From Powellomyces hirtus (lineage: Eukaryota > Chytridiomycota > Chytridiomycetes > Spizellomycetales > Powellomycetaceae): 64,000 nt of DNA. This document shows positions 428-62,400 of the stretch, one piece after another (position 1 is the first letter of the stretch; every line of letters begins with the position of its first letter). The stretch is from positions 1,116,001 to 1,180,000 of the forward strand of contig JAHLKG010000003.1 of NCBI GenBank assembly GCA_025526995.1. The letters run 5' to 3'. Position numbers and translations under genes: made by a program. The notes beneath the pieces are model-generated. The model saw nothing but the letters and a program-made list of their open reading frames with translations, did not search any database and was not told the origin of the DNA.

Positions 428-868
428 CTAGTTGAAATACACCCGCCGCAACCACCATCTCAATCGACGGTCCGACTTGTTGCATTTCGGGCAACGTATT
501 TCTCCACTTCAATGCACCAGACCCCGTGAACAGCTCTCACACAGAAAACAGGGGTTTCTTTCTCCACAGGCGTGCGGCGTCCGACAGTCTTTTCTTTCGT
601 AACACCTGTCACACCGCCTTCTCGTTACTTCCCCTTCAAAGAAGTTAATTCACTCTTTTCTGTGCAATGCGAGATATCAGTACCCTGAAACCAGCACAAC
701 GGAGCTCCTTCCTCACCTGCAGATAACACATCTGCGTGCGGCGTCGTCAGGTGTCACCCAAATGTACTTCAAACACCGGAAGCACAGCAGGTGCCCGCAG
801 TCCCCACAGAATTCGGCATCTCGAAAAAGGCAAACAGGACACTTCGGAGCTCGACCGTCTTGGGGCAT
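428..868 (-). pseudogene. Antisense RING-finger gene of Copia-B (two exons, two in-frame TGA)
   Basis: Not visible as one ORF because it is spliced. Exon 1 is 868-717, starting at ATG 868-866, only 25 nt from the LTR. It encodes a canonical C3HC4 RING: Cys10, 13, 24, His26, Cys29, 32, 47 and 50 (C-x2-C-x10-C-x-H-x2-C-x2-C-x14-C-x2-C). The intron is 716-660 (57 nt; GTGAGG donor, CTGAT branch-like site, CACAG acceptor, phase 2). Exon 2 is 659-428 and encodes a second Cys-rich RING-like cluster (RCDRC ... CFLCESC ... CPKC), ending in TAG at 428-430. Two in-frame TGA codons (652-650 and 511-509) make this copy a probable pseudogene, unless splicing differs. RING proteins are usually E3 ubiquitin ligases; the role here is unknown. 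It occupies almost all the space between pol and the 3' LTR. Confidence 0.72.
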
Positions 869-880
869 GTTTGGTCCCCA

Positions 881-892
881 AAGTCGGGGGAG
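881..892 (+). other. Polypurine tract of Copia-B
   Basis: AAGTCGGGGGAG lies directly against the LTR start. This is where the plus-strand primer of a 3' LTR is expected, so the LTR at 893-1159 is the 3' LTR of the element whose RNase H lies at 2-379. Confidence 0.75.
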
Positions 893-1159
893 TGTTGAGA
901 GTGGACTTTTGAGATAAACCTGTCAAATCGACAGCGCTCCAAAACTCCACGTGACTTCCGCTGTGCACTGGTGCTTCATTTAACCGCGTATGCTTAGATA
1001 GCTTGCACAGCCACCTTTCTTCTTCTTAGCGTAGATCTCTTTCACCCATCGTTTACACAACAACAACACAATCATCCCATTGTCATTGAGAGTGTCGAGC
1101 TAGCTTTCCTCTGTTGCACTACCCCTTAACCGGACCTATGCACAACACAACGCACAACA
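893..1159 (+). repeat. Copia-B LTR (267 bp), shared by two elements
   Basis: Starts TGTTGAGAGT and ends GCACAACA, with perfect terminal inverted TGTTG/CAACA. A purine tract precedes it and a primer binding site follows it, so one LTR is the 3' LTR of the upstream element and the 5' LTR of the downstream one. A CACGTG box lies at 948-953. Confidence 0.85.
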
Positions 1160-1174
1160 GGTTATGAGCCCTGA
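1160..1174 (+). other. Primer binding site, initiator tRNA-Met anticodon arm
   Basis: GGTTATGAGCCCTGA directly follows the LTR end. It is the exact complement of TCAGGGCTCATAACC, the anticodon stem-loop of eukaryotic initiator tRNA-Met. Drosophila copia is known to prime from a half tRNA cleaved in this loop; the same use here is inferred. Confidence 0.85.
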
Positions 1175-1240
1175 TAGCCCTCTCAACGCTTAAAACGACG
1201 AGTTTCCTGTATCCTTCTTCTTGTTGTTCAATACTCAATC

Positions 1241-7266: not shown

Positions 7267-8015
7267 ATGGCTGACACCCCCAACAACTCTACTCCCCCCC
7301 CCCGACACCACCACCACCACCCTGGGCAAACGCCGGCCCGCCCAGCAACTTGCGAAAGGTGCAACCAAGCGGGCCCAGCCCGCCCGGGTGAGTAGGGGTC
7401 GGTGCTCGTCCTCGGCTGTGGCAACTCGTCTCATGTTCCCCGTCTTCCCTTGTTGTCTACAGGACCCCTCGGTCCATGAAAAGTCCACCCCCGAGAGGTC
7501 GGCCGACTTGCCCTCTTGCTGGAAGTGCAACCAATTCCGCAAGAGCAAGATGTTCACATCGGAATGCCACCATTTGGTGTGCCGGCCCTGCATCGTGGCG
7601 GCGGCCGATGACACGGTATGTCCCCCCCCTTCGCTGAGAGGCGGCCTGATGTCTTCCTAACGGTGTGGTTCCTTCGTTCCTTTGCTTTCCAGAACGACGG
7701 CCCTCAGGGCCAGTTGACGTGCGGCGCCCCCCACTGCGGCCGGGTTCTCTTCTTTGCGGCCATCCCCGCCGGGTGCCAGTTCGCTGGCTGCAACCATGTC
7801 GGGGCGGACCTCCGCATGTTTCCATGCAACCATCTCCAGTGCATGGGCCACGTCCGCGTGTAAGTAGTACTCTTCGGCCTGCTGCTGTCGTACCTGACTA
7901 CCTCAGCTCTCTCCGCAGCGAGATGAAAGTGGCAAATTACACCCCCCTCCGGTGCGGGTTGGGCGACCGGTGCCACGGCAACCGGTGCCAATTCTCCTTC
8001 ACCAAGATTGGTTGA
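7267..8015 (+). pseudogene. G1-1 antisense tandem RING-like zinc-finger gene (4 exons, exon 1 frameshift)
   Basis: Antisense to the element, downstream of pol. Exons: 7267-7387, 7463-7615, 7693-7859 and 7919-8015 (TGA 8013-8015). Introns of 75, 77 and 59 nt are GT-AG. Exon 1 is 121 nt against 114 nt in the intact copy: a run of ten C (about 7294-7303) puts it one base out of frame, by mutation or homopolymer sequencing error. Exons 2-4 keep the full Cys/His pattern: SCWKC, ECHHLVCRPC, LTCGAPHC, GCQFAGC, PCNHLQCMGH and RCGLGDRCHGNRC. All splice sites are conserved with the second copy. Function unknown; two RING-like modules suggest ubiquitin-ligase or nucleic-acid binding activity. Confidence 0.75.
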
Positions 8016-15470: not shown

Positions 15471-15709
15471 TGTTAGCACGTACAGACTCTGTCATCGAGC
15501 CATAACTGCGCCATCGCAGGGCGTATCACGCGATCACGTGAGCCCACGTGATCAATTCCGATATAAGTAGTTTTCCTTCCATACTTAATATATCGGTGGG
15601 ACTTTTCTCTTTTTCTCCAGTAGAGCGGGATTAAGTTACTTCGTTGTTCTGCTCAGTCAACTACCCTAAAGCTTCCTCAATCATCTACTCAGATACTCTC
15701 AGACCAACA
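15471..15709 (+). repeat. C1 5' LTR (239 bp)
   Basis: Starts TGTTAGCACG and ends AGACCAACA. It contains an inverted pair of E-boxes (GATCACGTG, 4 nt, CACGTGATC at 15532-15553), followed by GATATAAGTAG, a likely TATA box, and a CT-rich tract. Confidence 0.93.
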
Positions 15710-15724
15710 GGTTATGAGCCCTGA
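15710..15724 (+). other. C1 primer binding site containing the gag start codon
   Basis: GGTTATGAGCCCTGA follows the LTR directly. The ATG within it (15714-15716) is the first codon of the long gag-pol frame, so Gag would begin MSPE, encoded by the primer site. A second ATG lies at codon 5 (15726). Confidence 0.82.
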
Positions 15725-17159
15725 AATGGTAGGCAACGAAACGAGCCCCCAGTACACTCGTAGTATGTTAAGATGCCTAACGGGTCGGCAGACCCCAGGG
15801 TCCAATACGCTACAACGAGCCGTAGAACGTGCCGCTAAGAAGAGCGCACAAGTGCCTGGTGAATGGACATCACCAGACAATGGAGGGAAATCTGCCGGTG
15901 ACGATACACTGGCAGAGCCAACGCCTTTGAGCGTCAACGCCAACGAGGGCGATGACGCATTGGAAGGGCGTACCCGAAACATCGACCGACGCGATGGCAA
16001 GGTCGATACCCGTCCCCTATCAAGCAGTACAGATGATCACAGAACAATCAACTACAGTACTCCAGCGGCATTCCCAAGTGGGGAATCAGCAAACACCGTG
16101 CATGTCCGCCCGCGTGAGGCGGACGTGGATAGGATAGATAGGCTTGAGAATTCTCTAGCCCAACTAACGGAAATGCTCCAAATGAAATGGCGCATGGATC
16201 AGGATGTGAATGTCCCGATCAACCCTCAGGTACGTACGGCGCAACGGCGCGTACGCACACCATCACCCACTCGCAACGACGGGTTCGCTGCACCGTGGAC
16301 AGAGTACAATCAGGAGATTGGAGCTCAACAGGACTACCAACGTTCTCCATTCGAACGCCGCCCTACATCACCGACATCGAGCATACACAGCGTGACGATC
16401 AAAATCGTTGACAGTCGAGGTGCGAAGGCTTTCGTGGATGGAACGCTGACAGATATTGGATCTTACAACGGAGAAGCCAATATGGTCAAACTTCGAACGT
16501 TCATCGACAAGATCGAGACAGTTGTGAAGTACGAAATGGTTCCGCCCGAGTTTCTCGTAGATTTTGTGGCTACGAAACTCACAGGATGGGCATACACTTG
16601 GTGGCAGTCGCTCTCACCAAATAAAAGGAACGAAATTACAACGTGGCATGACTTTGAAGACGTTGATTCAGGACAAACCAACACCAGTCTTAGGTCCGCC
16701 CTTCTGGCGCGCTTCGCGCCACGAAACCACACTAGAGTTTCGCTGCAGAAATTACGGGAATTGCGTCCCAAAGGCCGCTTGGATGAGTACATCACTCAGT
16801 TTAACATGCTGGCATTTTCTCTGCCGAAGACACCGGATTACGTCCTTCAGGATTACTTCATCAACGCGCTAACACCAGACCTTGCGGCCTTGGTTCAGGC
16901 TAATGAGGAAAACATAACTTATTTGAGCAGTTTACAGGCCGCTACATCCAGGATCGCCGCCAACATGGCTAAGAAACGTAGCGGGACCTCAACGGATACG
17001 CGACCAGGTGCCGCACACACTGACGCCTCTAAGAAACAAAAGGGTGGCAAGACCCACGGGGAGAAGTCAACGAACGGCAAGAAGGACAAGGAATCCACTC
17101 CATCAAACAAAGGCCAACAATCACAAAAGTCGGGTTGTTGGGCCTGTGGAGACCCTTAA
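15714..17159 (+). CDS. gag: C1 Gag (481 codons)
   Basis: ATG inside the PBS. It has a low-complexity N-terminal half (SSTDDHRTINYSTPAAFPSG), then the capsid region (AYTWWQSLSPNKRNEITTW, RSALLARFAPRNHTR, LDEYITQFNMLAFSLPKTPD), and a Lys-rich basic stretch. It ends at TAA 17157-17159 inside the zinc knuckle: CWACGDP, stop, then HRTQEC in the same frame. C2 has a Lys codon there and an intact C-x2-C-x4-H-x4-C. The same stop is present in C3. Confidence 0.9.
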   Translation: MSPEMVGNETSPQYTRSMLRCLTGRQTPGSNTLQRAVERAAKKSAQVPGEWTSPDNGGKSAGDDTLAEPTPLSVNANEGDDALEGRTRNIDRRDGKVDTRPLSSSTDDHRTINYSTPAAFPSGESANTVHVRPREADVDRIDRLENSLAQLTEMLQMKWRMDQDVNVPINPQVRTAQRRVRTPSPTRNDGFAAPWTEYNQEIGAQQDYQRSPFERRPTSPTSSIHSVTIKIVDSRGAKAFVDGTLTDIGSYNGEANMVKLRTFIDKIETVVKYEMVPPEFLVDFVATKLTGWAYTWWQSLSPNKRNEITTWHDFEDVDSGQTNTSLRSALLARFAPRNHTRVSLQKLRELRPKGRLDEYITQFNMLAFSLPKTPDYVLQDYFINALTPDLAALVQANEENITYLSSLQAATSRIAANMAKKRSGTSTDTRPGAAHTDASKKQKGGKTHGEKSTNGKKDKESTPSNKGQQSQKSGCWACGDP

Positions 17160-20100
17160 CACCGGACACAGGAGTGCAAAGTGTTAAAGAAGTTCAAATC
17201 CGAGATGGAGAAGAACAAGACGAAGCAGTCATCTGATGGTGCTGTTAGCACAAATGCTGTGGAAGCATTACACGTCTGGGTCCGCCAAGAACAACCGTAT
17301 GAAGCCCTCATCGACTCTGGCGCTATGGACCACATGACACCTCACAAAGCGACCTTAGATCACTCAACCGTGTACAGTGATGTCAGAGCTGTTATGCTTG
17401 CTGACAAAACATCACTACCCTCTACAGTTCGAGGTACGGTACGAGTAGAAGTTAGCGACTATCCGAATCCGCTCGAGTTGGGCGGAGTCCTGCATGTGCC
17501 AGGATTACGACGAGATCTCATATCGGTAGCGAAATGCAACGATCAAGGCGTTGACGTGCTCTTCAAATCGAATGGAGACGTCATTTTCATGCGAAACGGC
17601 AAAGATATCGCCAAAGGCGTACGCCGCAACAACGCGTATTACCTGCAAGGTACGCTGCTGTCTGAAAGTCTGTGGACAGATTCAGAAGCATGCACTGTCG
17701 AAGTCTCTCCTACACTCGCACATGCTCGTCTTGGACACGTTGGCAAACACGTCCTGGAGAAGATGGCATCGGTTACGGACGGTTGGTCCGTAGTGGGGGA
17801 TCTATATGACTTCAAAGATTGTGAAGCCTGCGTGTTAGGAAAAGCCGCTCGTCTTCCATTCTCCCTTGGTAACGTTGAAACCAGGGAGATCTGTGAGCTG
17901 ATTCATTCAGACCTACAAGGACCATTTCGCATCCCTGGTTACAAAGGATCACGCTATTCGCTGGAGTTCATTGAACACGCATCCAGATACGTGACTGTTT
18001 TCCCTATTCCTTCAAAGGATTCGGCAGTCATACTCGACAAGTTTCTTATCTACAAGGCTTGGATTGAGAAACAGACTGACCGACAAATCAAGATTCTACG
18101 TACGGATCGAGGCACCGAATACTTTGGCGAGGTTCTAGAGTACCTATTGGAAAATGGTATCACTCATCAGAAGGCCACGGCCTATTCGAGTCAGCAAAAC
18201 GGGATTGCCAAACAATGGCATCGCACGGTGCTGGACAGGGTCCGCGCCACCTTCGCGGATACGAAACTACCTCAAAGATTCTGGCCTGCTTTACTGGTAG
18301 CAGCTGGATACATCTATTCCCTCACGTACAACCGCATCAACAAGAAGACGCCGCATGAAATACTGTTTGGCCGGCGTCCTGATGTCGCCCATCTCCGGCG
18401 TATCGGTTGCGTGGCGTATTCCGTCCTAACGAGCAAAGGACGTGATAAAATGGGGAATCGAGCAAAGAAGGCTTACTTGGTAGGCTATGCTCAACCCTCA
18501 GGTACCAAGGGGTATCTGGTTTGGGATCCTATCACTGACAAGGTCGAAGTGTCACAAGACGTGATCTTCAAAGAAGACTTGGGACTCGAACCCAAATATC
18601 AGCAGGATCCAGCACATCTTGATCTCCTAGATGAGGAGAGTCAGGAGGATGACGTCGAATACACCGTGGAGGAGATTATCGACGAGCGCCGCAGTAAGGC
18701 GCACACGAAAGAATACTTGGTTAAGTGGGAGGGATATCAAGAACCTACGTGGGAGTCCCGACTCTCATTACTCGATACTACCGCATTGGATGACTGGGAG
18801 AATCGCGTAGCCGCATACAATGTCGGCACACGACGAAATGACCCCATCGCTGCATACGCCGCTCGCGCGCGGACTCAAGCAACGATCAACGAAGACGCCA
18901 TGACATGGAAGCAAGCGATGAAAACCCCTCAGAAGGAGGAATTTCTTAAGGCTGCACGCATAGAGTACCAATCCCTGGTCGACAACGGTACATGGGAACT
19001 CACCAAGCGTCCACGTAACAAGCGCGTGATCGGCACAACATGGGTCTTTCGAACAAAGGTCAATCCCAATGGCACCTTTAACAAGTTTAAAGCCAGAGCA
19101 GTGGCTCAAGGCTTCTCTCAACAACCCGGTCGCGACTTTGGTGATACATACTCACCGACGCTACCATTCACAGCGCTACGCCTCTTCTTGGCGTATTGTG
19201 TCCAGCACGGGCTGGACATCCACAGTATGGACGCTGTCACCGCCTTCCTTAACAGTGATATTGATAAGGATATCTATATCGAGCAGTTTGAGGGATTCGA
19301 AGATCCGGATCACCCCAAAGGCAAATGGGTCCTGAAGCTACTGAAAGCTCTCTACGGCCTGAAGCAATCACCTCTTCTTTGGTATGAGACCTTGAAGACC
19401 GCACTGTCAAAGCTCGGCTACGAAGCGGTTTCTGTATGCCCGTGTATCTTTTTCAAGTACGCGACAGACGACCGTACACCTCCGTCGAACGACAATTTGG
19501 TCCTTATTCTTGTCTTCGTTGACGACCTGCTGATTGCAGCGAAGGATCCGGAGATTCTGGCGAACAGCAAGAAGGAGCTACATTCGAAGTTCAAGTTTAC
19601 GGAACAAGGTCGCGTAACCAGTCACCTTGGTCTTGTTTACAAATATGATTTCGACTCTGCTGTCCGTACCCTCGAAATCTCAAATGTCAAGTACATCGAC
19701 GACGCTCTTGCACAATTCGGCATGAGCGACTGCCATCCTGTCTCCACTCCGTACACCGTGTCAGCGCGTAACCAACAATCGGAGGATTCGACCCCATTCA
19801 CGAATCTGAAAATGTATCAGGAAGCAGTGGGGGTCCTCACTTGGGCCTCCATCACATGGCGATGGGATATCGCCACTGCAGTCGGTTATGTTGCGCGCCG
19901 CGTCGCCGCACCTACCAACTCCGACTGGAACAATGTTAAGCGCATTTTCCGCTATTTGAAGGGTACCCGCGATTATGCCCTCAAGTTTACATCCGAACGA
20001 AATGATCCGCGTGGACTACGCGTATTCACGGATGCGGATTATGCAGGAGAACTCACCGACCGGACGTCCACTACAGGTATTTTGGCCCTTTACAATGGGT

Positions 20101-20222: not shown

Positions 20223-20255
20223 GTCTTGGGACCTCAACCGGATTACAAATCTTGA

Positions 20256-46100: not shown

Positions 46101-47994
46101 CTTTGGCGATATCTTTGCCGTTTCGCGTGAAAATGACATCTCCATTCGATTTGAAGAGCACGTCAACGCCTTGATTGTTGCATTTCGCTACCGATATGAG
46201 ATCTCGTCGTAATCCTGGCACATGCAGGACTCCGCCCAACTCGAGCGGATTCGGGTAGTCGTTAACTTCTACTCGTACCGTACCTCGAACTGTAGAGGGT
46301 AGTGATGTTTTGTCAGCAAGCATAACAGCTCTGACATCACTGTACACGGTTGAGTGATCCAAGGTCGCTTTGTGAGGTGTCATGTGGTCCGTAGCGCCAG
46401 AGTCGATGAGGGCTTCATACGGTTGTTCTTGGCGGACCCAGACGTGTAATGCTTCCACAGCATTTGTGCTAACAGCACCATCAGACGACTGCTTCGTCTT
46501 GTTCTTCTCCATCTCGGATTTAAACTTCTTTAACACTTCGCACTCCTGTGTTTGGTGTTTCGGGTCTCCACAGGCCCAACAACCCGACTTGTGTTGTTGG
46601 CCTTTGTTTGATGGAGTGGATTCCTTGTCCTTCTTGCCGGCTGACTTCTCCCCATGGGCCCTACCCTTTGGTTTCTTAGAGGCATCAGTGTGTGCAGCAC
46701 CTGGTCGCGTATCCGTTGTGGTCCCGCTAGGTTTCTTAGCCATGTTGGCGGCGATCCTGGATGCAGCGGCCTGTAAACTGCTCAAATCAGTTATGTTTTC
46801 CTCATTAGCCTGAACCAAGGCCGCAAGGTCTGGTGTTAGCGCGTTGATGAAGTAATCCTGAAGGACGTAATCCGGTGTCTTCGGCAGAGAAAATGCCAGC
46901 ATGTTAAACTGAGTGATGTACTCATCCATGCGGCCTTTGGGACGCAATTCCCGTAATTTCTGCAGCGAATCCCTAGTGTGGTTTTGTGGCGCGAACCGCG
47001 CCAGAAGGGCGGACCTAAGACCGGTGTTGGTTCTTCCTGAATCAACGTCTTCAAAGTCATGCCACGTCGTAATTGCGTTCCTTTTATTTGGTGAGAGCGA
47101 CTGCCACCAAGTGTATGCCCATCCTGTGAGTTTCGTAGCCACAAAATCCACAAGAAACTCGGGCGGAACCATTTCGTACTTCACAACCGTCTCAATCTTG
47201 TCGATGAACGTTCGAAGTTTGACCATATTGGCTTCCCCGTTGTAAGATCCAATATCTTTCAGCGTTCCATCCACGAAAGCCTTCGCACCTCGACTGTCGA
47301 TGATTTTGGTCGTCAAGCTGTGTATGCTCGATGTCGGTGATGTAGGGCGGCGTTCGAATGGAGAACGTTGGTAGTCCTGTTGAGCTCCAATCTCCTGATT
47401 GTACTCTGTCCACGGTGCAGCGAACCCATCGTTGCGAGTGGGTGATGGTGTGCGTACGCGCTGTTGCGCCGTACGTACCTGAGGGTTGACCGGGATGTTC
47501 ACATCCTGATCCATGCGCCATTTCATTTGGAGCATTTCCGTTAGTTGGGCTAGAGAGTTCTCAAGCCTATCTATCCTATCCACGTCCGCCTCACGCGGGC
47601 GGACATGCACGGTGTTCGCTGATTCCCCACTTGGGAATGCCGCTGGAGTACTGTAGTTGATCGTTCTGTGATCATCTGTACTGCTTGATAGGGGACGGGT
47701 ATCGACCTTGCCATCGTGTCGGTCGATGTTTCGGGTACGCCCTTCCAATGCGTTGTTGCCCTCGTTGGCATTGACGCTCAAAGGCGTTGGCTCTGCCAGT
47801 GTATCGTCACCGGCAGATTTCCCTCCATTGTCTGGTGATGTCCATTCACCAGGCACTCGTGCGCTCTTCTTAGCGGCACGTTCTACGGCTCGTTGTAGCG
47901 TATTGGACCATGGGTTCTGCCGACCCGTTAGGCGTCTTAACATACTACGAGTGTACCGGGGGCTCGTTTCGTTGCCTACCATTTCAGGGCTCAT
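42717..47994 (-). pseudogene. gag-pol: C2 Gag-Pol
   Basis: ATG 47994 inside the PBS (47998-47984). Gag and pol are in one frame with an intact zinc knuckle CWACGDPKHQTQEC. Order: protease (DSGATDHMTPH), integrase zinc region, and DDE core. A 2-nt deletion near 45738 (GATGTGTTC for GATGCGTGTTC) shifts the frame early in the integrase core. Downstream: Glu of DDE kept (NGIAERW), chromodomain (about 44930-45062; EYTVEAIIDERR ... YLVKWEGYQEPTWE), RT with FVDDLLIAAK, RNase H. A TAG at 43473-43475 stops RNase H; its tail runs from 43424 down to 42717, overlapping the antisense gene. Confidence 0.93.
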
Positions 47995-47998
47995 AACC

Positions 47999-48237
47999 TG
48001 TTGGTCTGAGAGTATCTGAGTAGATGATTGAGGAAGCTTTAGGGTAGTTGACTGAGCAGAACAACGAAGTAACTTAATCCCGCTCTATTGGAGAAAAAGA
48101 GAAAAGTCCCACCGATATATTAAGTATGGAAGGAAAACTACTTATATCGGAGTTGATCACGTGGGCTCACGTGATCGCGCGATACGCCCTGCGATGGCGC
48201 AGTTGTGACTTGATGACAGAGTCTGTACGTGCTAACA
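47999..48237 (-). repeat. C2 5' LTR (239 bp)
   Basis: On the plus strand TGTTGGTCTG to GTGCTAACA, with the PBS at 47984-47998 on its inner side and ATAAT on its outer side. Close to the 3' LTR. Confidence 0.94.
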
Positions 48238-49970
48238 ATAATACATGGGAACCGCTCGAAAATGTCAATCATTTGACAGTCTTCGCTGACTACATCAGCG
48301 AGAAGACGGCGATCGCTCTTTTGGCTGCAAGTACCAAAGAACCCCAAACCTACAAACAAGCGCTCTCATCAGACGACGCGCCGAAATGGACCGAGGCCAT
48401 AAATGCCGAATTGAAGTCCCTTCATACCAATGAGACATGGGAAGTCATTAACCCCAAATCTTCTCCGCACAATCAACGGTCCATCCGCACTAAATGGGTA
48501 TTCAAGATTAAGCGAGACCTGAATGGTCAACCCCAACGATACAAGGCCCGGCTTGTAGTGAAAGGCTTCGAACAACGCTACGGCATTGACTACAACGAAA
48601 CCTATGCTCCGGTTGCCAAAATTGCTACCCAACACGTCCTCCTCGCTCTCGCCGCCAGCCTAGGCTTGAAATGCCATCAAATGGTTGTAGTAACCGCATT
48701 CCTGAATGGGATTGTAACCGAGACCATCCTAATCTATGCCCCTGAAGGCTCTGGCTTCCTGTCCGGGACCATCCTTCGACTCCGAAAGGCCCTTTACGGT
48801 CTGAAACAAGCCCCGCGCGAATGGTACTCCCTGCTTCACAAAGAACCGACTTCTTTGGGATTCAAGCGCCTGGCAAATGACAATGCCGTCTACATCAGAA
48901 CTCTACCTGAAAGTGACTCATCGCAGTACATCTCCGTCTACGTCGACGATCTTCTCATTTTCGCAAAGACCGAATCGGAAATCTCGTCAATCAAGACATC
49001 CCTGCACAACGAGTTCAACATGACAGACCTAGGTGAAGTCAACCACTACCTAGGAATGAGAGTTCGACGCGACTTCTCGAGGCACGTCATCTATCTCGAT
49101 CAAGAGTCATATGTTAATGACATCCTCGAGCGCTTTGGTATGCAAGACTGCAAGCCCGTCAACACTCCGATGGACCAGACCAAGCTCGAACCCTACAAAG
49201 TCGAAAATACAAAGACTCCACCTAACCCGCAAGAAGGAGAATATCGCGAAATCGTTGGTTCTCTCATGTACCTGATGATATGCACGCGTCCTGACATTGC
49301 TGTCGCAGTCAGTATGCTTTCTTGCTTTGCAAGCAACCCTTCGCCTCAACATCTGCAAGCTGCAAAGCGCGTTCTGCGCTACCTACGGGGAACATCAGAT
49401 TACAGCCTCTGCATCGGCGGAAATAACGTCACCCTTCACGGCTACAGTGATGCCGATTGGGGAAATAACATCATTGACCGACGGTCAATCACTGGCTACC
49501 TTTTCTACATTGGAAATGCGGGCCCCGTTACTTGGGCTTCGAAGCGCCAACCCACCGTTGCTCTCTCATCTACCGAAGCTGAATACATGGTACTTTCCTT
49601 CGCCACTCAAGAGACAATTTGGCTTTGCTCACTTCTGCAAGAACTCCAAATCCCCAAATATCTTGATGAAAATGCTCGACCTACAACGATCTACGAAGAC
49701 AATCAGTCATGCATCTCATTGGCAATGAATCCCGTGCATCACACCCATACCAAGCACATCAACATTCGACATCACTTCATTCGTGATCACATCGACAAGG
49801 AGATTCACCTGGAGTACTTACCTACCGCTGAAATGGTAGCCGACTCACTTACAAAGCCTTTACCGGCCCAGGCATTCAAATACCATTGCGAAAGCATGTG
49901 CATCAAGCACTACAACAACACCATCACGCCAATGACGAAAGCGTCCATGATGGAGCTCCCGAATGAGTAA
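48238..49970 (+). pseudogene. pol: A4 Pol, part 2 (chromodomain end, RT, RNase H)
   Basis: Resumes with TWEPLENVNHLTVFADYI. RT: KWVFKIKRDLNGQPQRYKAR, VTAFLNG, YVDDLLIFAKT intact. RT motif A reads HQMVVVTAFLNG where A3 has HQMDVVTAFLNG, so a catalytic Asp is lost. RNase H: HGYSDADWGN, ALSSTEAEYM, YEDNQSCISLA, ADSLTKPLPAQ; stop TAA 49968-49970. The stop is only 39 bp from the LTR, so this family has no room for an antisense gene. Confidence 0.95.
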
Positions 49971-49997
49971 AATCCCATCATTGCGGATCGATTGCTC

Positions 49998-50009
49998 GGA
50001 CAGGGGGTG
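49998..50009 (+). other. A4 polypurine tract
   Basis: GGACAGGGGGTG directly before the 3' LTR start at 50010. Confidence 0.75.
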
Positions 50010-50379
50010 TATTGGAATGTTGAGACTTGCGTACTCAACGTTTGGTCCTTACATTAGATCCTTACTTGGATTCTCCGACTAGAACACGTGACCACTATAC
50101 CGGTAACACTAAGAGCTGAATTGGATCACGTGTGATCACGTGATTGGAGAAAAGGTAGATTAGAACGCTCGAAGCAAGACTTTGCCGATAAGACTTTAAG
50201 ACAAAAAAAAAATACATTCACATACATTACATCTCCGTGCATCTGACAACGCTACATCGTCATCTGCATCACAGAAGAGCTCTGTAAACCCCCTTTACGA
50301 AGTATACTGGAGGCCACATCAAATTTGGCCAATCCTCTGCAATTCCGATAAAGTACTGGAAGTGCCGATATCTCCAATA
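50010..50379 (+). repeat. A4 3' LTR (370 bp)
   Basis: TATTGGAATG to TCTCCAATA. About ten differences from the 5' LTR, several at CpG sites. The outer flank AAAAC continues into a G1 RT. Confidence 0.93.
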
Positions 50380-50610: not shown

Positions 50611-50888
50611 TGTAACATCAAAGGAAGCTTTGATAGTTGGTAGTAATAAATAGTGTGTATTATCGTGTGTTGTAAGGTAACGAGCGGAGTAGGGCGACCA
50701 GCGGCTGACAGCTTTATATAATGCGTGTCAGGGTGGCGCAAAGTAATTTATCCGCGAGGCGCTTTATTGCCTATAAGTCAGGAGTCATGTGTATCACCGA
50801 TGAACGGGTGGCCAGCCCGAACAAAGGATCGCGTATAACGTAATCAGAAAGTCACAAAAAAGTATAAGAATATGAGGTTTCCCCGACA
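50611..50888 (-). repeat. G2 3' LTR (278 bp)
   Basis: On the minus strand TGTCGGGGAAACC to TTACA. Nine differences from the other LTR, seven at CpG positions. The purine tract GGGTCTGAGGGAGG abuts it on the minus strand (50889-50902). No CACGTG box, unlike the other four families. Confidence 0.95.
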
Positions 50889-50980
50889 CCTCCCTCAGAC
50901 CCTGAGGAAGCATCGTAGATGAATGTGAAGGGGATGAATAGAAAGGGAGAGCTCATGTTCATTTTAGACTGTTGACGCAG

Positions 50981-51137
50981 TGCTCAGTTCTTGCGTTGGC
51001 GCGCAATGTTTGTAGGTGCAACAGAGGCGTCCCTCGTGTCGAAGTGTTTGTGTGTGTGCATATAGGCCAGTTTTTGCGTCGCTGCGCGTGTGATTGTATT
51101 TGTAGGTCGGTTCTTGCGTCGCCGCGCATGATGTAAG
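50981..51137. repeat. Three imperfect ~36-42 bp repeats in the G2 3' untranslated region
   Basis: TTCTTGCGTTGGCGCGCA, TTTTTGCGTCGCTGCGCG and TTCTTGCGTCGCCGCGCA recur at about 50981, 51061 and 51103. The remaining 50903-51186 shows no gene on either strand. Confidence 0.6.
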
Positions 51138-51186
51138 GAGAGACGAGGCAAAGCCGTTCCGTCATGGTTGAGTAGTGATAAGGGTT

Positions 51187-54100
51187 TTACCTTTTTCTAC
51201 TAGTTGGCTGTATTGCCAAAGAGTTTGAATGTGCTGTGCGCCATCGTTTGTAGGCAGATGTTTCTCGGAGTTCAGACTCAGGTTCCCATGTAGGGTCGGT
51301 CCATCCTGCCCATTTGACCAAAAGATTTTGCTTGTGGCGGCGCTCATCAAGAATGTCTTCGACAACCCATTCTTGTTCTCCACGAACTTCGACTGGTTCA
51401 GGTGGTTGTTGGACTTCGCGTTGTGGATATTGGTCTATTGCGTGAGGGCGTAGGATATCGACGTGGAAGACAGGCCAAATGCCACTAATCTTTGAAGGCG
51501 AGAGATCGAGTTCATAGGTATCAGGATGATCACCTTTGGCGATGACTTTGTAGGGTCCGATCCATATAGTAGAGAATCGAGGGCCTCTTCTTATGTCAAC
51601 CTCGAGGTCTATACCATTACGGTTGAGGTCGACGAGATCTCCAATATTGTAAGCGATAGGAGTGCGGCCTTTGTCATGTTGTCGGGCGTATTCATCTTGT
51701 GTTTGACTTTGATTTTCGTGTACGATTCGGGCTATTTCTTCTTGTCCCTTGTGGTATTTTTCGAGTTCAGCCTTATCGACTCCGCGTAAACGAAGTTCTT
51801 GTCCTTCTAGGAGTGGATTCCATCCAGGTAAGATAACTGTGCGGCCAAGATCTACTTCAAATGGTGTCAAGCCTTCATATTCGCTTCTAGGGGCAGTGTT
51901 GAAGGCGAACTCGACAAGCGGGAGTAGTTTCTTCCAGTTGCTTCTATCGTAGTTGAGATACTGTTTGAAAATTCTCTTTAGTGTTTGGATGGCTCGTTCG
52001 ACTTTTCCGTCGGTTTGTTGATGTCGAGCTGTGGCAAATTCGTGCTTAACGCCGAGTAAAATATCGAAAGCGAGAAAAAACCTGAAAGTGCTCGAGGTTC
52101 GCGGTCGGTAACAAAGACTTTTGGGGTCCCGACGTATTTCCATACTCAATCCAGAAAAAGGGCAGCAAGCTCTTTACCACCAATGTTTTTGTTGACAGCT
52201 GAAAGAATAGCACGTCCCGATAGATAATCGATGCAGGCAAGACATGCTTCATCTCCAATGTAGAAGATATCAAATCCAATAGTATGCCATCTTCCCAGTG
52301 GAACAGGAAGTGGTCGTAGAAATCCGTAACGGCGATGACCAGGCTTGAATTGTCGGCAGGATTTACATGTTCCGACATACTTCATGACGTCTTGTCTAAC
52401 GTTAGGCCAATAATAATCGACGAGAATTCGGGCAAGTGTTTTTTTAACGCCGAGATGACCTCCAGTGGCTAAATCATCGTGAAATTGTCGTAAGACTTTT
52501 GGGTGTAGGCTTTCAGGTACGTAAAGACGTCCTTCGTGGCGAGCGATTCCATCTTGGAAAGTATACCGTCGTTCTTTTGCGGTCTTTTCGTGATCAGGTT
52601 TCCGACAGATCTCCTCAAGGTATTCAGAATAGGGATCTGTAGCTAGAGCTTGTTTCCATTCTTCGGTAGAATATGTTGGCGTCGTGCGAAGATCAATTGT
52701 TGTTCCAACTATAGGAGGGATTCCATCCATCATGTTATTGACCTGAGTGTGCATATCGATGCGTCTTTGACATTCGACACAACGTGGAGCATAAATAGCA
52801 CTTCGAGAGAGAATATCCGCAATATGATTCCACCTCCCTGGAATGTACTGAATCGTAAAATCATATTCTTGTAGAATTTTGACCCATCAAGCTTGTCTTC
52901 GGCTAAGATGAGGTTGTGTTTGGATAAATTCTAAGCCTTTGTGATCACTGAAACACCGAAACGGTCGTCCAACCAGGTATGGTCTATTGGCTACAAGCAT
53001 CTTGACTAATGCGAGTAGTTCTTGTTCATGTGTCGGATACCGGGTCTCAGCGCCCTTCATCCTGCGAGAGTAGAAAACGACAGGTCGGAGGCGAGGTAAT
53101 TGTTTCCATTTGCCAACGAGACGAGGAAGATTGGTTGGTATGGTCTCGTCATCATATGGTTGTCCGATCCATCCAGCAATGGCGTAGCCAGACGAATCTG
53201 TGTAGAGATAGATAGGTTTACTTTCATCGATAGTTGCTAAAGCTGGCGCATTGATGAGCGCTTCCTTAAGTTTCTGGAACGCTTGTTCTTGATTGGCTTC
53301 CCATTTGAACTTGACTTTCGCCGATTGGATGTTGGACAATGGGAGAGCAATGTTCGAATAATCTTTGACAAAGTCGAGGAAATAGTTGGCGAGACCAAGG
53401 AATGATTGGACTCCTTTCGTAGATGTGGGTCTAGGCCAGTCCTTGATCACTTGAATTTTCGAAGGGGCAATGCAAATTCCATTTCGGCCCAAGACGTGTC
53501 CACACCATTCAACTTCGGGCACGGCCCAGACACATTTAGAAGGTTTAACGTAAAGTTGATGTTCTTCAAGCTTTTTGAGGACTAGGTCCACATGTTTCTG
53601 ATGTTCCACTAGTGTCTTTGAGAAGATGAGGATATCGTCGACGTATGAGTTAACAAAGTCGTCGTAGTCTTTGTGGAAAATTTTGTCCATTAATCATTGG
53701 AATGCGGCAGGAGCATTGGTTAAGCCGAAAGGCATGACAAGGTATTCGAAATGACCAAATCTTGTACGTATGGCGGTCTTTTCCCGATCTTGTTTTCGAG
53801 TGAGCAAACAATGATAGGCTTCCTTAATATCGATAAGACTGAAGTATTCGCATCCTTGAATTCGGTCACGCATTTCGCAAATATTCGGAAGAGGTGTTCG
53901 ATCTTTCTTTGTGACGGAGTTGAGACCTCGATAGTCCCAACAAATAGGTAGTCCTCCATCTTTCCTCTTGGCGAAAACGACACTAGCTCCCCATGGGCTT
54001 GAGGAGTGCTGTATCCATCCTTTCTCGAGCATCAGTTGAATTTGCTTTTTCAGTTCGGCTAATTCTTCCTTATTCATGTGGCGGAGAGGTTGCCAGACAG

Positions 54101-54886
54101 GTTCAGCGCCTTCGATGAGTTTGATTTGGAAATTATCTTCTCCCCGATCAGGTGGTAAGCCTTGCGGTTCCTTGAATAGAGTATCAACGTACTTTTCCAG
54201 AGAATCTTTCAAAAGTTCGGGGTTTCCCCTAAACCGTTCCGGATCCTCCGAAATTTCGTTGAGGGCCAATCGACACACGGTATTGTCTTCGAATTTATTT
54301 CGTTGCCAGGCTTTGTTGAATCGCTTAGATGTAACTTCGATCATTTGAATATTGCGATGAGCAGCGGCTTTGGTGAATGCAGATTGTTTCGTAGATGGAG
54401 TAGTGTCAAAGTAAAAGAGACAATTCCGAGGGAGAAAGTCTAATGGTTGCCATTTTCGTGATGTTCGTTCGCATTTGATGGTGACGGAGAGTGATGCGTT
54501 TGGTATCTGTGAGTGATTAGTAAAACGAAGAATAGGTTGTTTTTCGTGTAAGTATTGTTCAGCGTGAGTAAAGAGATTCCAGAAAGGTGTTCCGATGATC
54601 GCATCGTATATAAGATTGCTGACGAGCCATGGGATTTGTCCGACCTTAAAGGCAAATGAGATTCAATGTTCCAAAGTTCTAACGGTTCGGAGACAACGGT
54701 GTCTAGAAGAATTTGAGATTTTTTGTCGGCCAGAGTTATTTGTTGTGGTTCGGTAGGCCTAGTTTCGAATTTATGTTTTTTGGCGAAGGTCTTGTTGAGA
54801 AACATTCCCGTCGCTCCGCTATCGAATAATACTCGGGCAAATTTCTTTCCAATACGGCCATGTGCAATCCATAATCCAGTGGCCAA
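51187..54886 (-). pseudogene. pol: G2 Pol: protease, RT, RNase H, integrase, chromodomain
   Basis: The protease has FDSGATGMFLNKTF; its frame shifts near 54650 (start at 54886 is arbitrary, codon TTG). RT 54344-52887 has an intact SYVDDILIFSKT. In-frame TGA codons at 53694-53696 (CGA elsewhere in the family motif FQRLMD) and 52887-52889 break it. RNase H and integrase zinc region (HDDLATGGHLGVKK, CKSCRQFK) follow; a frameshift near 52149 precedes the core end (QQTDGKVERAIQTLK). It ends with a chromodomain (about 51240-51380; EWVVEDILDERR ... LLVKWAGWTDPTWEP) and stop 51187. The aromatic cage positions are all Trp. Confidence 0.93.
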
Positions 54887-54948
54887 AGGTTTCCATGCAT
54901 CTTGAACGGTAGGTAGATATGGAGGCCGAACAGAGCTACCGATGGGCT

Positions 54949-56319
54949 CTAACGACCGTTGAGAAAACCCACTTGTCGTTGCTGGGCGTTAGCGACATCG
55001 ACTGCACTTTGAATGGCCGCTTGCACATGCGGCGTGACAATTTGATTTAACTGATTCTGCGTCATATTGTTGTTCGCCATTCCTTGTGCCTGGTTTTGGT
55101 TTTGATTGGATTGGCCACGACCACCTCGGCCGCAACCATTTCCACGGCCTCGTTGTCCGGGGCCACTGCGTCGACTACCATGTTGTTGATTTCCGGTATT
55201 ATACCAGCAGTCAGCGGACCAATGTCCCATACAATTACAAATTGGGCAAGGAGTTGTTGGTGCTTGACGTCGTTGACCACGGCCTCTCGATTGGTAACCT
55301 TGTCTAGGATAATTGTACGGTGGTCTGTAGGTAATGAGGTTGCGGCTCACACCAGGTGGATATGGAATGAGGTTAAGATTGTTGAAGTCGTCCGTGAGGT
55401 TGTCAGTGTCGTCTATTCCAGTTAGTCGAGGATTGGAATAAGGACTATATTGTGATTGTCCGCCTCGACTGCCTCGGCCACAACCGCCTCCATGACCGCG
55501 ACCGGATCCGCCGCGCCCACAAGAGGATGTATTGAGAGGATTATTGTCAGAAAATCCATGGACGACAAAAGCTTGTCGAGCAGCTTCTATGGCTTGCTGA
55601 ATGGTAATGGGTGCAGCAGCTGCGGCGGCAAGGTTTTGATTGATTTCGAAAGTATTGATCGCATTGTATAGATAGTGACCGATGATAGGGTTCTTTAGGA
55701 GATCTGCTTTAAAAATACGAATGATATCAGCAGCAGGAATAGTAGCTTGTGTAGGATCAAGACGCAAAGCAGCATCAAGTTCATGGCATTCATCTTGGAA
55801 CTTCGTAACAAATTCTTCAAGTGAGTTCCCGAGGGCGAGATTGGTCAATCTAAGTTCGATCGCGTTGCGAAGATTGCGAGGGAAGAATTAGGTAATGAGG
55901 GCTGTTTGGAAAGCTGCCCAACTGGCAGGTGCTCCTGCGGCAGAAGTAGTGTTGTACCACTCAAGAGCAGTACCCTTGAGGTAGGATTGGAGAGTGCCAA
56001 CATAATTGGCCATGGGCAATGGTACGGCAGGAACTGCGGGAACAGGAGGAGGACCGACAACCGCAGGAATGGCAGGAGTAGCAAGAGCCCAATAAAAGTT
56101 ACTGTGGGAAGTCAAAAACTCCTCTATCTTCTTGGCGGACTTGGTGCCATCGTATTCAGAGAGCTTAGCCTTTTGTGCGTCGAGAAGGGTCTTAGCTCGA
56201 TTGGGGCGAGCGGGAGCTGCAGCAGCAACAACAGGAGCTGCGGCAATAACACCGGCAGTAACGGCGGTAACAATGGCAGCTTGTACAGCGGGAGTAAGTG
56301 CAGGGGGCATGTTGTTCAA
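54949..56319 (-). pseudogene. gag: G2 Gag with one nonsense codon
   Basis: ATG 56319 (MNNMPPALTPAVQ), a second ATG at 56310. Ala/Pro-rich start, capsid region (MANYVGTLQSYLKGTALEWY), TAA at 55888-55890, probably from CAA (Gln), then the same frame: FFPRNLRNAIELRLTNLALG. An RGG-like Gly/Arg region (GRGGSGRGHGGGCGRGSRGG) and zinc knuckle CPICNCMGHWSADC follow. Stop at 54949-54951. RGG and zinc knuckle suggest RNA packaging. About 457 codons in all. Confidence 0.9.
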
Positions 56320-56350
56320 TTGGAGTGATCGTGGTTGATGGTGCTAGTGT

Positions 56351-56365
56351 GGGGTGGTGCTACCA
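56351..56365 (-). other. G2 primer binding site
   Basis: TGGTAGCACCACCCC on the minus strand, directly after the LTR end. Identical to the first 15 bases of the G1 primer site. Confidence 0.82.
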
Positions 56366-56643
56366 TGTAACGTCAAAGGAAGCTTTGATAGTTGGTAGTA
56401 ATAAATAGTGTGTATTATCGTGTGTTGTAAGGTAACGAGTGGAGTAGGGCGACCAGCGGCTGACAGCTTTATATAATGCGTGTCAGGGTGGCGCAAAGTA
56501 ATTTATCCGCGAGGCGCTTTATTGCCTATGAGTCAGGAGTCATGTGTATCACCAATGAACGGGTGGCCAGCCCAAACAAAGGATCGCATATAATGTAATC
56601 AGAAAGTCACGAAAAAGTATTAGAATATGAGGTTTCCCCGACA
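56366..56643 (-). repeat. G2 5' LTR (278 bp)
   Basis: On the plus strand TGTAACGTCAAAGG to GGTTTCCCCGACA, followed by TCCAC. It contains TTTATATAATGCG (about 56469-56481), a possible TATA box on either strand. Confidence 0.95.
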
Positions 56644-58550: not shown

Positions 58551-61500
58551 GTTGTTGAGAGAAGCCTTGAGCCACTGCTCTGGCTCTGAACTTGTTAAAG
58601 GTGCCATCGGCATTGACCTTTGTTCGAAAGACCCGTGTTTTTCCGATCACGCGCTTGTTACGTGGACGCTTGGTGAGCTCCCATGTACCATTGTCGACCA
58701 GGGATTGCTACTCAATGCATGCAGCCTTGAGAAATTCCTCCTTCTGAGGGGTTTTCATTGCTTCCTTCCATGTCATGGCGTCTTTGTTGATCGTTGCTTG
58801 AGTCCGCACGTGGGCGGCGTATGCAGCGATGGGGTCATTTCGTCGTGTGCCGACATTGTACGTGGCTACTCGATTCTCCCAGTCATCCAATGCTGTAGTA
58901 TCGAGTAGTGAAAGTCGGGACTCCCAAGTAGGTTCTTGATATCCCTCCCACTTAACCAAGTACTCTTTTGTGTGCACCTTACTGCGGCGCTTGTCGATAA
59001 TTGCCTCCACGGTGTATTCGACGTCATCCTCCTGACTCTCCTCATCTAGAAGGTCAAGATGTGCTGGATCCTGCTGATATTTGGGTTCAAGTCCCAAGTC
59101 TTCTTTGAAAATCACGTCTCGTGACACTTCGACCTTGTCAGTAACAGGATCCCATACCAGATACCCCTTGGTACCTGTGGGTTGAGCATAGCCTACCAAG
59201 TAAGCCTTCTTTGCTCGATTCCCCATTTTATCTCGTCCTTTGCTCGTTAGAACGGAATACGCCACGCAACCGATACGCCGGAGATGGGCGACATCAGGAC
59301 GCCGGCCAAACAGTATTTCATGCGGCGTCTTCTTGTTGATGCGGTTGTACGTGAGGGAATAGATGTAACCAGCCGCTACCAGTAGAGCAGGCCAGAATCT
59401 TCGGGGTAGTTTCGTATCCACAAAGGTGGCGCGGACCCTGTCCAGCGCCGTGCGATGCCATCGTTTGGCAATCCCGTTTTGCTGACTCGAATAGGCCGCG
59501 GCCTTCTGATGAGTGATACCATTTTCCAATAGGTACTCTAGAACCTCGCCAAAGTATTCGGTGCCTCGATCCGTACGTAGAATCTTGATTTGTCGGTCAG
59601 TCTGTTTCTCAATCCAAGCCTTGTAGATAAGAAACTTGTCGAGTATGACTGCCGAATCCTTTGAAGGAATAGGGAAAACAGTCACGTATCTGGATGCGTG
59701 TTCAATGAACTCCAGCAAATAGCGTGATCCTTTGTAACCAGGGATGCGAAATGGTCCTTGTAGGTCTGAATGAATCAGCTCACAGATCTCCCTGGTTTCA
59801 ACGTTACCAAGGGAGAATGGAAGACGAGCGGCTTTTCCTAGCACGCAGGCTTCACAATCTTTGAAGTCGCTTAGATCCCCCACTACGGACCAACCGTCCG
59901 TAACCGATGCCATCTTCTCCAGGACGTGTTTGCCAACGTGTCCAAGACGAGCATGAGCGAGTGTAGGAGAGACTTCAACAGTGCATGCTTCTGAATCTGA
60001 CCACAGACTTTCAGACAGCAGCCTACCTTGCAGGTAATACGCGTTGTTGCAGCGTACGCCTTTGGCGATATCTTTGCCATCTTGCGTGAAAATGACGTCT
60101 CCATTCGATTTGAAGAGCACGTCAACGCCTTGATCGTTGCATTTCGCTACCGATATGAGATCTCGTCGTAATCCTGGCACATGCAGGACTCCGCCCAACT
60201 CGAGCGGATTCGGATAGTCGCTAACTTCTACTCGTACCGTACCTCGAACTGTAGAGGGTAGTGATGTTTTGTCAGCAAGCATAACAGCTCTGACATCACT
60301 GTACACGGTTGAGTGATCTAAGGTCGCTTTGTGAGGTGTCATGTGGTCCGTAGCGCCAGAGTCGATGAGGGCTTCATACGGTTGTTCTTGGCGGACCCAG
60401 ACGTGTAATGCTTCCACAGCATTTGTGCTAACAGCACCATCAGATGACTGCTTCGTCTTGTTCTTCTCCATCTCGGATTTGAACTTCTTTAACACTTCGC
60501 ACTCCTGTGTCCGGTGTTAAGGGTCTCCACAGGCCCAACAACCCGACTTTTGTGATTGTTGGCCTTTGTTTGATGGAGTGGATTCCTTGTCCTTCTTGCC
60601 GTTCGTTGACTTCTCCCCGTGGGTCTTGCCACCCTTTTGTTTCTTAGAGGCGTCAGTGTGTGCGGCACCTGGTCGCGTATCCGTTGAGGTCCCGCTACGT
60701 TTCTTAGCCATGTTGGCGGCGATCCTGGATGTAGCGGCCTGTAAACTGCTCAAATCAGTTATGTTTTCTTCATTAGCCTGAACCAAGGCCGCAAGGTCTG
60801 GTGTTAGCACGTTAATGAAGTAATCCTGAAGGACGTAATCCGGTCTCTTCGGCAGAGAAAATGCCAGCATGTTAAACTGAGTGATGTACTCATCCATGCG
60901 GCCTTTGGGACGCAATTCCCGTAATTTCTGCAGCGAATCCCTAGTGTGGTTTCGTGGCGCGAACCGCGCCAGAAGGGCGGACCTAAGACCGGTGTTGGTT
61001 CTACCTGAATCAACGTCTTCGAAGTCATGCCACGTCGTAATTTCGTTCCTTTTACTTGGGGAGAGCGACTGCCACCAAGTGTATGCCCATCCTGTGAGTT
61101 TCGTAGCCACAAAATCTACGCGAAACTTGGGCGGAACCATTTTGTACTTCACAACTGTCTCAATCTTGTTGATGAACGTTCGAAGTTTGACCATATTGGC
61201 TTCCCCGTTGTAAGATCCAATATCTTTCAGCGTTCCATCCACGAAAGCCTTCGCACCTCAACTGTCGACGATTTTGGTCGTCACGCTGTGTATGCTCGAT
61301 GTCGGTGATGTAGGGCGGCGTTCGATTGGAGAACGTTGGTATTCCTGTTGAGCTCCAATCTCCTGATTGTACTCTGTCCACGGTGCAGCGAACCCGTCGT
61401 TGCGTGTGGGTGATGGTGTGCGTACGCGCCGTTGCGCCGTACGTACCTGAGGGTTGACCGGGATGTTCATAACCTGATCCATGCGCCATTTCATTTGGAG

Positions 61501-61962
61501 CATTTCCGTTAGTTGGGCTAGAGAATTCTCAAGCTGATCTATCCTATCCATGTCCGCCCCACGCGGGCGGACATGCACGGTGTTCGCTGATTCCCCACTT
61601 GGGAATGCCGCTGGAGTACTGTAGTTGATCGTTCTGTAATCATCCGTACTGCTTGATAGGGGTCGGGTTTCGACCTTGTCAGTTCGTCGGTCGATGTTTC
61701 GGGTACGCCCTTCCAATGCATCGTCGCCCTCGTTGGCGTCGACACTCAAAGGCGTTGGCTCTGCCAGTGTATCATTACCGGCAGATTTCCCTCCATTGCT
61801 TGGTGATGTCCATTCACCAGGCACTCGTGCGCTTTTCTTAGCGGCACGTTCTATGGCTCGTTGTAGCGTATGGGACCCTGGGGTCTGTCGACCCGTTAGG
61901 CGTCTTAACATACTACAAGTGTACCGGGGGCTCGTTTCGTTGCCTACCATTTCAGGGCTCAT
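58551..61962 (-). pseudogene. gag-pol: C3 Gag-Pol, truncated in RT
   Basis: ATG 61962 inside the PBS (61966-61952). Gag is broken by TGA near 61258 and by the TAA in the zinc knuckle (CWACGDP, stop, HRTQEC; about 60517-60519), the same stop as C1. Pol is open 60495-58708: protease DSGATDHMTPH, integrase (NGIAKRW, Glu to Lys as in C1), and chromodomain (EYTVEAIIDKRR ... YLVKWEGYQEPTWE, about 58895-59020). A stop at 58708 (TAG for TAC) comes early in RT, which then breaks off at 58551 (FSQQPARDL). No 3' end of its own. Confidence 0.92.
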
Positions 61963-61966
61963 AACC

Positions 61967-62228
61967 TGTTGGTCTGAGAGTATCTGGGTAGATAGTTGAG
62001 GAAGCTTTCAGGGTAGTTGACTGGGCAAAACAACGAAGTAACTTAATCCCACTCTGATAGAGAAAAAGAGAAAAGTCCCCACCGATATATTAAGTATAGA
62101 AGGAAAACTACTTATATCGGAGTTGATCACGTGGTTTGCACGTGATTGCGTGATTCATTGTAGTGGCATAGCATACGCCCTGCGATGGCGCAGTTGTGAC
62201 TCGATGACAGAGTCTGTACACGCTAACA
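61967..62228 (-). repeat. C3 5' LTR (262 bp)
   Basis: On the plus strand TGTTGGTCTG to ACACGCTAACA, same subtype as 58170-58431 but inverted. Most differences between the two are C/T or G/A at CpG sites. Confidence 0.92.
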
Positions 62229-62400
62229 GCACCACTGCCGATGGCACAGCCGGAGCCGTGGTCGCCGCAGGAGCAGCTGCCGGCGGTGCCGTTTTTCTTG
62301 CCGTCATCTTTGTCTTCTTGCCCGAACCTGACAACTTCACCGGCCCATAGTTAGAGCTTACGCCTTATTTGCGCGGATCTCATAGACGTACCTTGGCCAT
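62229..62400 (-). pseudogene. Copia-C antisense gene, 5' fragment (C4)
   Basis: Exon 1 is 62400-62392 (ATGGCCAAG, MAK), intron 62391-62335 (57 nt; GTACGT donor, CTAAC branch site, GTGAAG acceptor), exon 2 from 62334 (LSGSGKKTKMTARKTAPPAA) to 62229, where the C3 LTR cuts it. It is more diverged than C1 and C2 but keeps start, splice sites and frame. Confidence 0.75.

Follow-up and report, generated by a model that had tools for sequence, protein, structure and literature searches.

Introduction

How can a retrotransposon carry a gene that contains introns? An intron lying in the sense strand would be lost in the first round of retrotransposition. The question is raised by a 64-kb stretch of the chytrid fungus Powellomyces hirtus (contig JAHLKG010000003.1 of assembly GCA_025526995.1, positions 1,116,001 to 1,180,000; hereafter the window), which is a nest of long terminal repeat (LTR) elements. 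A sequence-only reading of the window claimed that three LTR families, Copia-B, Copia-C and chromovirus G1, each bear an antisense gene with short introns at a shared position behind pol.

Gene models and splice sites in genomic copies bear this out. The antisense genes of the three families are opposite in orientation to gag-pol, lie between the end of pol and the 3' LTR, and have GT-AG introns. They occur throughout the genome (29.26 Mb in 60 contigs) in all three families, being neither private to the window nor absent elsewhere. Among the seven LTR families that we compared, three have such a gene; this survey covers the best-scored places (150 of 630 RVT_2 candidates and 150 of 184 RNase H candidates) with a few loci per family, and misses rarer families. 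The genomic places were gathered using the antisense gene itself as query, a procedure that gene-less copies would escape.

We propose, with a probability of about 0.72, that the antisense genes of all three families are genuine accessory genes, each of which would be expressed from a separate spliced mRNA and encode a small protein acting in trans. The proposal is built on what the data show: the structure and recurrence of these genes, selection on their codons (weak in Copia-C), RING-type sequence, and the cassette-like divergence of the G1 gene.

Results

Copia-B: a spliced antisense frame under purifying selection

The Copia-B features of the window are as follows.

15471..21649, plus strand: Copia-B copy 1, with LTRs of 239 bp at 15471-15709 and 21411-21649
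21286..21294, minus strand: antisense exon 1 (three codons beginning with the ATG), about 117 nt from the inner edge of the 3' LTR
21229..21285, minus strand: antisense intron of 57 nt, GTACGT..CTAAC..TAG
20605..21228, minus strand: antisense exon 2
42424..43114, plus strand: antisense gene of Copia-B copy 2 (L003), two exons and a 58-nt intron, in a host element at 42069-48237 on the minus strand

The two exons encode a predicted product of 210 amino acids. The 57-nt intron is preferred because its donor, branch point, acceptor and frame all fit; a 34-nt intron starting from an alternative ATG was dropped, its branch point being only 6 nt from the donor. For the copy comparison, the 30 best-scored places were taken and four near-identical ones removed, leaving 26. 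The full antisense frame is intact in 22 of these, the splice signals are conserved between copies, and the sole length change falls inside the intron. An open frame of at least 200 amino acids is present at 91 of 114 scored places, all found via the gene itself.

Variants private to one copy arose after insertion and are unselected, whereas shared variants have been transmitted via active elements. Among variants common to at least three of the 26 Copia-B copies, 24 of 41 are synonymous in the antisense frame against 14.2 expected, a count reached in 0 of 2000 shuffles, whereas singletons are neutral (30 of 91 synonymous, 29.9 expected). The RNase H region of pol, used as positive control, gives 21 synonymous changes among 30 shared variants for 12.5 expected. 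The only other frame with a similar signal is the mirror frame, which shares the same wobble column and has two to three stops in each of the 26 copies. Purifying selection on the Copia-B antisense gene is thus clear.

The pol frame of Copia-B is itself open through the antisense exon in 23 of the 26 copies, so that the pol tail and the antisense gene overlap; the placement of the gene between pol and LTR, as first read, needs this qualification in Copia-B. On this pol side, 21 of 73 shared changes are synonymous against 26.6 expected, showing no selection, and coding of the tail on the element strand was dropped for that reason.

The middle of the Copia-B protein is basic and its tail acidic; a Pfam scan gives no domain above threshold. 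Two proteins in the database, including one of Powellomyces hirtus, match it at 88-89% identity. P0002, a protein deposited for P. hirtus, joins a DNA polymerase fragment (PF03175) to Copia-B antisense exon 2 and departs from the Copia-B frame exactly at the predicted acceptor; the deposited model may be a prediction or derive from RNA. The polymerase part of P0002 has no match in this genome.

G1: two gene types in one chromovirus family

G1 is a chromovirus, its pol containing a Ty3-type reverse transcriptase, an integrase and a chromodomain. Its features in the window are the following.

29274..37231, minus strand: G1 copy 2, with LTRs at about 29274-29549 and 36971-37231
30007..30120, plus strand: antisense exon 1, ATG about 458 nt from the LTR edge, with a TTTAAAA box about 110 nt upstream
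30196..30348, plus strand: antisense exon 2, RING-like CWKC..CHHLVCRPC
30424..30590, plus strand: antisense exon 3, rich in cysteine (Cys) and histidine (His)
30650..30746, plus strand: antisense exon 4, third Cys cluster and stop
7267..8015, plus strand: antisense gene of G1 copy 1, same four exons, exon 1 frame shifted
30998..31779, and also 8267-9049, strand-less: tandem repeats, unit about 60 nt, separating the antisense gene from the pol stop

The four exons encode a predicted product of 176 amino acids, and the gene ends before the pol stop. In 21 counted copies (20 genomic places and the two window copies, with L071 removed), the full frame is present in 15, of which 11 also have all splice dinucleotides; the TTTAAAA box precedes the antisense ATG in 16.

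A genome protein search reveals a second type of the gene at ten loci, with relatives scoring far below the rest. The one modelled in full (L073) has the same four exons and standard splice sites at 55% protein identity to type 1. Between types, the ratio of nonsynonymous to synonymous substitution rates (dN/dS) is 0.33, with a bootstrap range of 0.39-0.65 for the ratio of the corresponding proportions of differences (pN/pS), and purifying selection on the G1 gene is clear at this level. This comparison is the strong part of the case for selection in G1. For variants of the first type common to at least two copies, 29 of 62 are synonymous against 21.9 expected, and 43 of 2000 shuffles are as high.

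These data bear on whether the frames are open by chance, as a result of base composition and of selection on pol on the opposite strand. The pol frame facing the Copia-B gene, with no stop in 23 of 26 copies, speaks for such an origin. The absence of selection on that pol side and the introns with standard signals speak against it, as do the two G1 types, which keep one exon layout and a dN/dS of 0.33 at 55% identity. Chance is refuted for Copia-B and G1; the Copia-C evidence is weaker, and for the three genes together we find this explanation scarcely credible.

We compared region identities in eight type-1 and ten type-2 copies of G1, given here within type 1, within type 2 and between types. 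They are 92.6, 91.5 and 90.4% for the LTR, 93.0, 90.1 and 59.3% for the antisense gene, 92.9, 86.8 and 50.3% for its introns, and 94.7, 84.4 and 85.6% for the stretch after the gene. The two types are separated in the gene tree, with full support, and in the tree of the stretch behind the gene (87/92), but not in the LTR tree. Because the divergence of the gene far exceeds that of the LTR and the trees disagree, the G1 gene has, on these comparisons, been replaced as a cassette at least once. The LTR tree needs three changes of type (bootstrap 2-3, with 0% of bootstrap trees having one), of which well-supported branches force one. Repeated exchange is not proven, given that single forced change and a post-gene tree that separates the types. 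The region comparison gives no G1-like island of divergence in Copia-B or Copia-C.

The same divergence, far beyond that of the flanking LTRs, could be read as the trace of another mobile element that inserted into the LTR elements and hitch-hikes there. In the aligned G1 copies, however, the gene is always there and one type replaces the other, rather than being present in some copies and absent from others (terminal repeats and target duplications were not searched for). We regard nested insertion as very unlikely.

Exons 2 to 4 of the G1 gene contain three Cys/His clusters, the first of them RING-like. Pfam zf-RING_5 matches type 2 with an E value of 0.0025 (18.2 bits, below the cut-off of 27.9), and a profile search of the PDB returns PCGF5 as a weak match (E 0.014). 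The G1 product thus looks like a RING-like multi-zinc protein.

Three further loci, L079, L080 and L084, hold a G1-type antisense gene and align poorly to G1 on the LTR side (35-48% identity in the first bins for L079 and L080, 69-81% for L084); they are possibly further gene-carrying families.

A G1-type protein filed as a viral oncoid

One deposited third-party annotation protein, P0003, is the 'oncoid' of Powellomyces chytrid fungus MELD virus 1. It is 69% identical to the spliced G1 protein over 82% of the query, and translations of G1 introns 1 and 2 sit in frame within it. Its best three genomic matches are at 95-96%, and two of them fall in places independently found as G1 copies. On these grounds P0003 is a G1-type antisense gene read without splicing, and the public label 'oncoid' is probably wrong. 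The deposit describes a viral gene with no introns, whereas the G1 gene has them, and the Oncoid class is defined solely by short linear motifs (PMC11071296). No relative of the G1-type protein was found in IMG/VR, where records near this genome may be left out.

Copia-C: a predicted RING finger protein

The first 1150 nt of the window are the 3' end of one Copia-C copy.

2..379, plus strand: 3' end of Copia-C pol (RNase H-like, labelled by eye), stop at 377-379
717..868, minus strand: antisense exon 1, RING finger, ATG about 25 nt from the LTR edge
428..620, minus strand: antisense exon 2, second Cys cluster, with a premature stop in the window copy
893..1150, plus strand: 3' LTR of the left copy, given by match borders, right edge approximate

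In intact copies the two exons, separated by a 96-nt intron, encode 114 amino acids, and the gene stops short of the pol stop without overlapping pol. Among 21 copies (20 of the 42 other genomic places found, plus the window copy), the acceptor AG is kept in all 21 and the full frame in 13; 15 had been flagged, of which L034 and L046 terminate early. The premature stop of the window copy is not present at that place in 18 of the 21.

Purifying selection is weaker here than in the other two genes. The dN/dS of seven pairs is 0.13-0.76 and its bootstrap range lies below 1 in four of the seven, the pairs being hand-chosen and non-independent. The Cys codons are hit by none of 65 shared nonsynonymous changes where 1.9 would be expected (p 0.04).

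Alignments show C3HC4 ligand spacing in exon 1, as in the RING fingers of RNF4 and TRAF6. PDB profile searches from four exact Copia-C sequences return RNF4 (E 1.3e-5) and TRAF6 (E 0.008), and Pfam zf-RING_2 matches one Copia-C subtype with an E value of 9.7e-5; unlike those of established RING fingers, this score of 23.0 bits is below the cut-off of 27.3, and ligase activity would be a prediction from sequence. The Copia-C product is a predicted RING finger protein, with no match in a database search. The earlier claim that the three genes have no sequence in common stands in that homology between the Copia-C and G1 proteins is not supported (hhalign probability 2.0), and needs qualifying in that both would encode RING-type zinc proteins.

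A divergent cassette of the G1 kind is unsupported in Copia-C. When three copies of the other Copia-C subtype are set against L033, the divergence of the gene exceeds that of pol (Fisher 3e-6 to 5e-6) but not that of the LTR (p 0.18-0.57).

The LTR at 893-1150 serves the left copy, and the 5' part of a further copy adjoins it directly, so that the two stand in tandem; even spacings on contigs C34, C1 and C7 likewise suggest tandem copies. Homologues of the Copia-C gene also occur at L086 (two exons, intron of 67 nt), L087 (with a stop), L088 (exon 2 alone) and L101, where no copia pol was found. By eye, a frame beside the homologue on C1 and C34 resembles dynein light chain LC8, and another on C1 Fanzor/TnpB; the scanned pieces gave no Pfam match to either.

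The homologue on C1 raises the question of whether the elements acquired these genes from the host or from DNA viruses, or have them in common with either, and carry them as mere passengers. It has a similar two-exon layout and no copia pol within 3.5 kb on one side, and the deposit of a G1-type protein under a virus name points the same way. Against passengers stands the selection on shared variants in Copia-B and G1, and the 'viral' protein reads through the G1 introns at 95-96% identity to G1 copies. We give the passenger explanation a low probability; an origin by capture is in any case compatible with a present function.

Families without an antisense gene

Copia-A and G2, which were held to lack the gene, do so, and serve as controls.

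38632..50379, plus strand: Copia-A, split by Copia-B copy 2
50611..56643, minus strand: G2 chromovirus

In Copia-A the pol stop at 49970 is separated by only 39 nt from the LTR, which begins at 50010. In G2, between the pol stop at 51187 and the LTR edge at 50888, the longest antisense frame is 64 amino acids.

Elsewhere in the genome, Copia-D (L089, C7:382000-387000), which is compact and young, has no antisense frame of at least 90 amino acids after the pol stop, a search that short exons may escape. Copia-D has many long open pol frames, often of 1361-1368 amino acids, and is packed in one tight region on many contigs, for example C28:3-59 kb, C8:380-442 kb, C12:337-398 kb and C25:144-225 kb; these clusters may mark centromeres. 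Chromovirus G3 (L096, C1:1828400-1833161) carries a sense open reading frame behind pol; it is 563 codons long and includes a PHD finger (PF00628, 25.4 bits, cut-off 24), and a shorter related frame is present at L097 (C11:404300-409129). The best RNase H match, L095, is a further gypsy element; its 3' LTR was not located, no clear accessory gene was seen, and it was left out of the tally.

Discussion

Proposed mechanism

Based on the above data, we propose that each antisense gene, starting near the inner edge of the 3' LTR, is transcribed into a separate mRNA, with a promoter located within that LTR or next to it. Splicing of this mRNA would yield a small protein: RING in Copia-C, RING-like multi-zinc in G1, and basic/acidic in Copia-B. 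The sense genomic RNA would hold the introns reversed and unspliceable, so that the gene is copied whole at every transposition. The antisense intron would survive retrotransposition because it is not spliced from the sense genomic RNA. The idea of a gene hidden from the genomic RNA yet travelling with it was already in the sequence-only reading and follows established splicing logic. The sole sense accessory gene that we saw, encoding the PHD finger protein of G3, is a single open frame. The proteins would act in trans, tuning the expression of their own element or blunting host restraint; by analogy with HBZ and Grande gene23, these are probably their targets. The RING domains suggest activity as ubiquitin ligase or scaffold.

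It could instead be the antisense RNA, not a protein, that matters. Paired to the genomic RNA at its 3' end, such an RNA would feed small-RNA silencing or block reverse transcription, thereby controlling copy number; the sequence-only reading had named copy-number control or a source of dsRNA as possible roles. The position and orientation of the genes fit this role, and similar roles of antisense transcripts have been proposed for plant elements and HIV-1 (PMC7264820, PMC8622228). An RNA has no need of an open frame, however, and the codon-level selection, together with the preserved frames and introns, suggests that the product is a protein and not just RNA. We consider an RNA-only role improbable, and an RNA role could coexist with that of a protein.

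Several observations weigh against our proposal of protein-coding accessory genes. For G1, the synonymous excess is not significant among variants common to at least three copies (19 of 41 against 15.2 expected, 210 of 2000 shuffles), singletons fall short of the expected synonymous share (9 of 54, with 17.5 expected), for which we offer no explanation, and the Cys codons enjoy no special protection (1 change observed, 1.1 expected). For Copia-C, the shared synonymous excess is likewise not significant (32 of 97 against 25.8 expected, 117 of 2000 shuffles as high), and three of the seven pairs fit a dN/dS of 1, two pairs using L034, a copy with a stop. The Pfam RING matches of both proteins all lie under the curated cut-offs. 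Lastly, transcription, the place of the promoter and splicing in the cell are inferred from DNA, as is function, which is argued by analogy only.

Comparison with known systems

Plants and the fungal element Boty provide published examples of antisense genes between pol and the 3' LTR (PMC7264820), and for deltaretroviruses both spliced antisense transcripts and antisense proteins have been described (PMC8622228). Genes of this kind are therefore already known, and the phrase 'new accessory-gene strategy' in the sequence-only reading was too strong (PMC7264820, PMC8622228). Its mention of antisense reading frames in plant Tat-lineage gypsy elements is confirmed in print (PMC7264820, PMC11963269).

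The plant Tat/Retand frames, named aORF-3R, include Grande gene23, RIRE2 and Retand TRP28 (PMC7264820, PMC11963269). The type is defined by a coding frame, conserved as a protein, that runs opposite to gag-pol in the interval from pol to the 3' LTR. The genes described here have that placement, except that the Copia-B frame overlaps an open pol tail, and that conservation, which is weaker for Copia-C. The plant genes differ in having TRP28 and SMC domains, whereas those of P. hirtus have RING-type domains and introns and also occur in two copia families. A Pfam scan found no TRP28 domain in the Copia-B, Copia-C and G1 proteins, and the word 'intron' is absent from the main texts of PMC7264820 and PMC11963269 on plant antisense frames. 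Plant Retand elements often carry tandem repeats in this region (PMC11963269), to which those of G1, with units of about 60 nt, may be compared.

In Boty/brtn of Botrytis cinerea and Sclerotinia, likewise a chromodomain gypsy element of fungi, the antisense gene also sits between pol and the 3' LTR (PMC7264820, PMC8365987, PMC4227169); this is one ascomycete family, whereas three families in one genome are involved here. HBZ of HTLV-1 and the other deltaretroviral antisense genes are also antisense, at the 3' end, protein-coding and spliced, as is predicted here (PMC8622228). HBZ belongs to the bZIP proteins and comes from an animal retrovirus, whereas these are fungal elements with other proteins, in which the Pfam scan found no bZIP match. 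In the open-access literature and a few subscription journals we found no account of intron-bearing antisense genes in fungal copia or gypsy elements, nor of RING-type products; none of the searches was directed at exchangeable gene types inside a single LTR family, on which we therefore claim no novelty.

Implications

A broader idea may be put forward tentatively, though we hold it to be rather unlikely as a whole: unrelated LTR elements would have independently taken up antisense, intron-bearing zinc-finger genes for counter-defence or self-regulation in trans. The G1 gene would then be a swappable specificity cassette, and its two types, long separated yet present in a single element family, would stay distinct in the manner of an arms race or an immunity group; the introns would be possible only because the genes are antisense.

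The public record that lists such a gene as the 'oncoid' of a DNA virus would merit correction. If our proposal of genuine accessory genes is true, the two-type cassette of G1 would be a natural experiment on the purpose of the gene, and the introns and RING-type domains would make function testable. Antisense accessory genes would then be a recurrent solution in both the copia and the gypsy elements of one early-diverging fungus.

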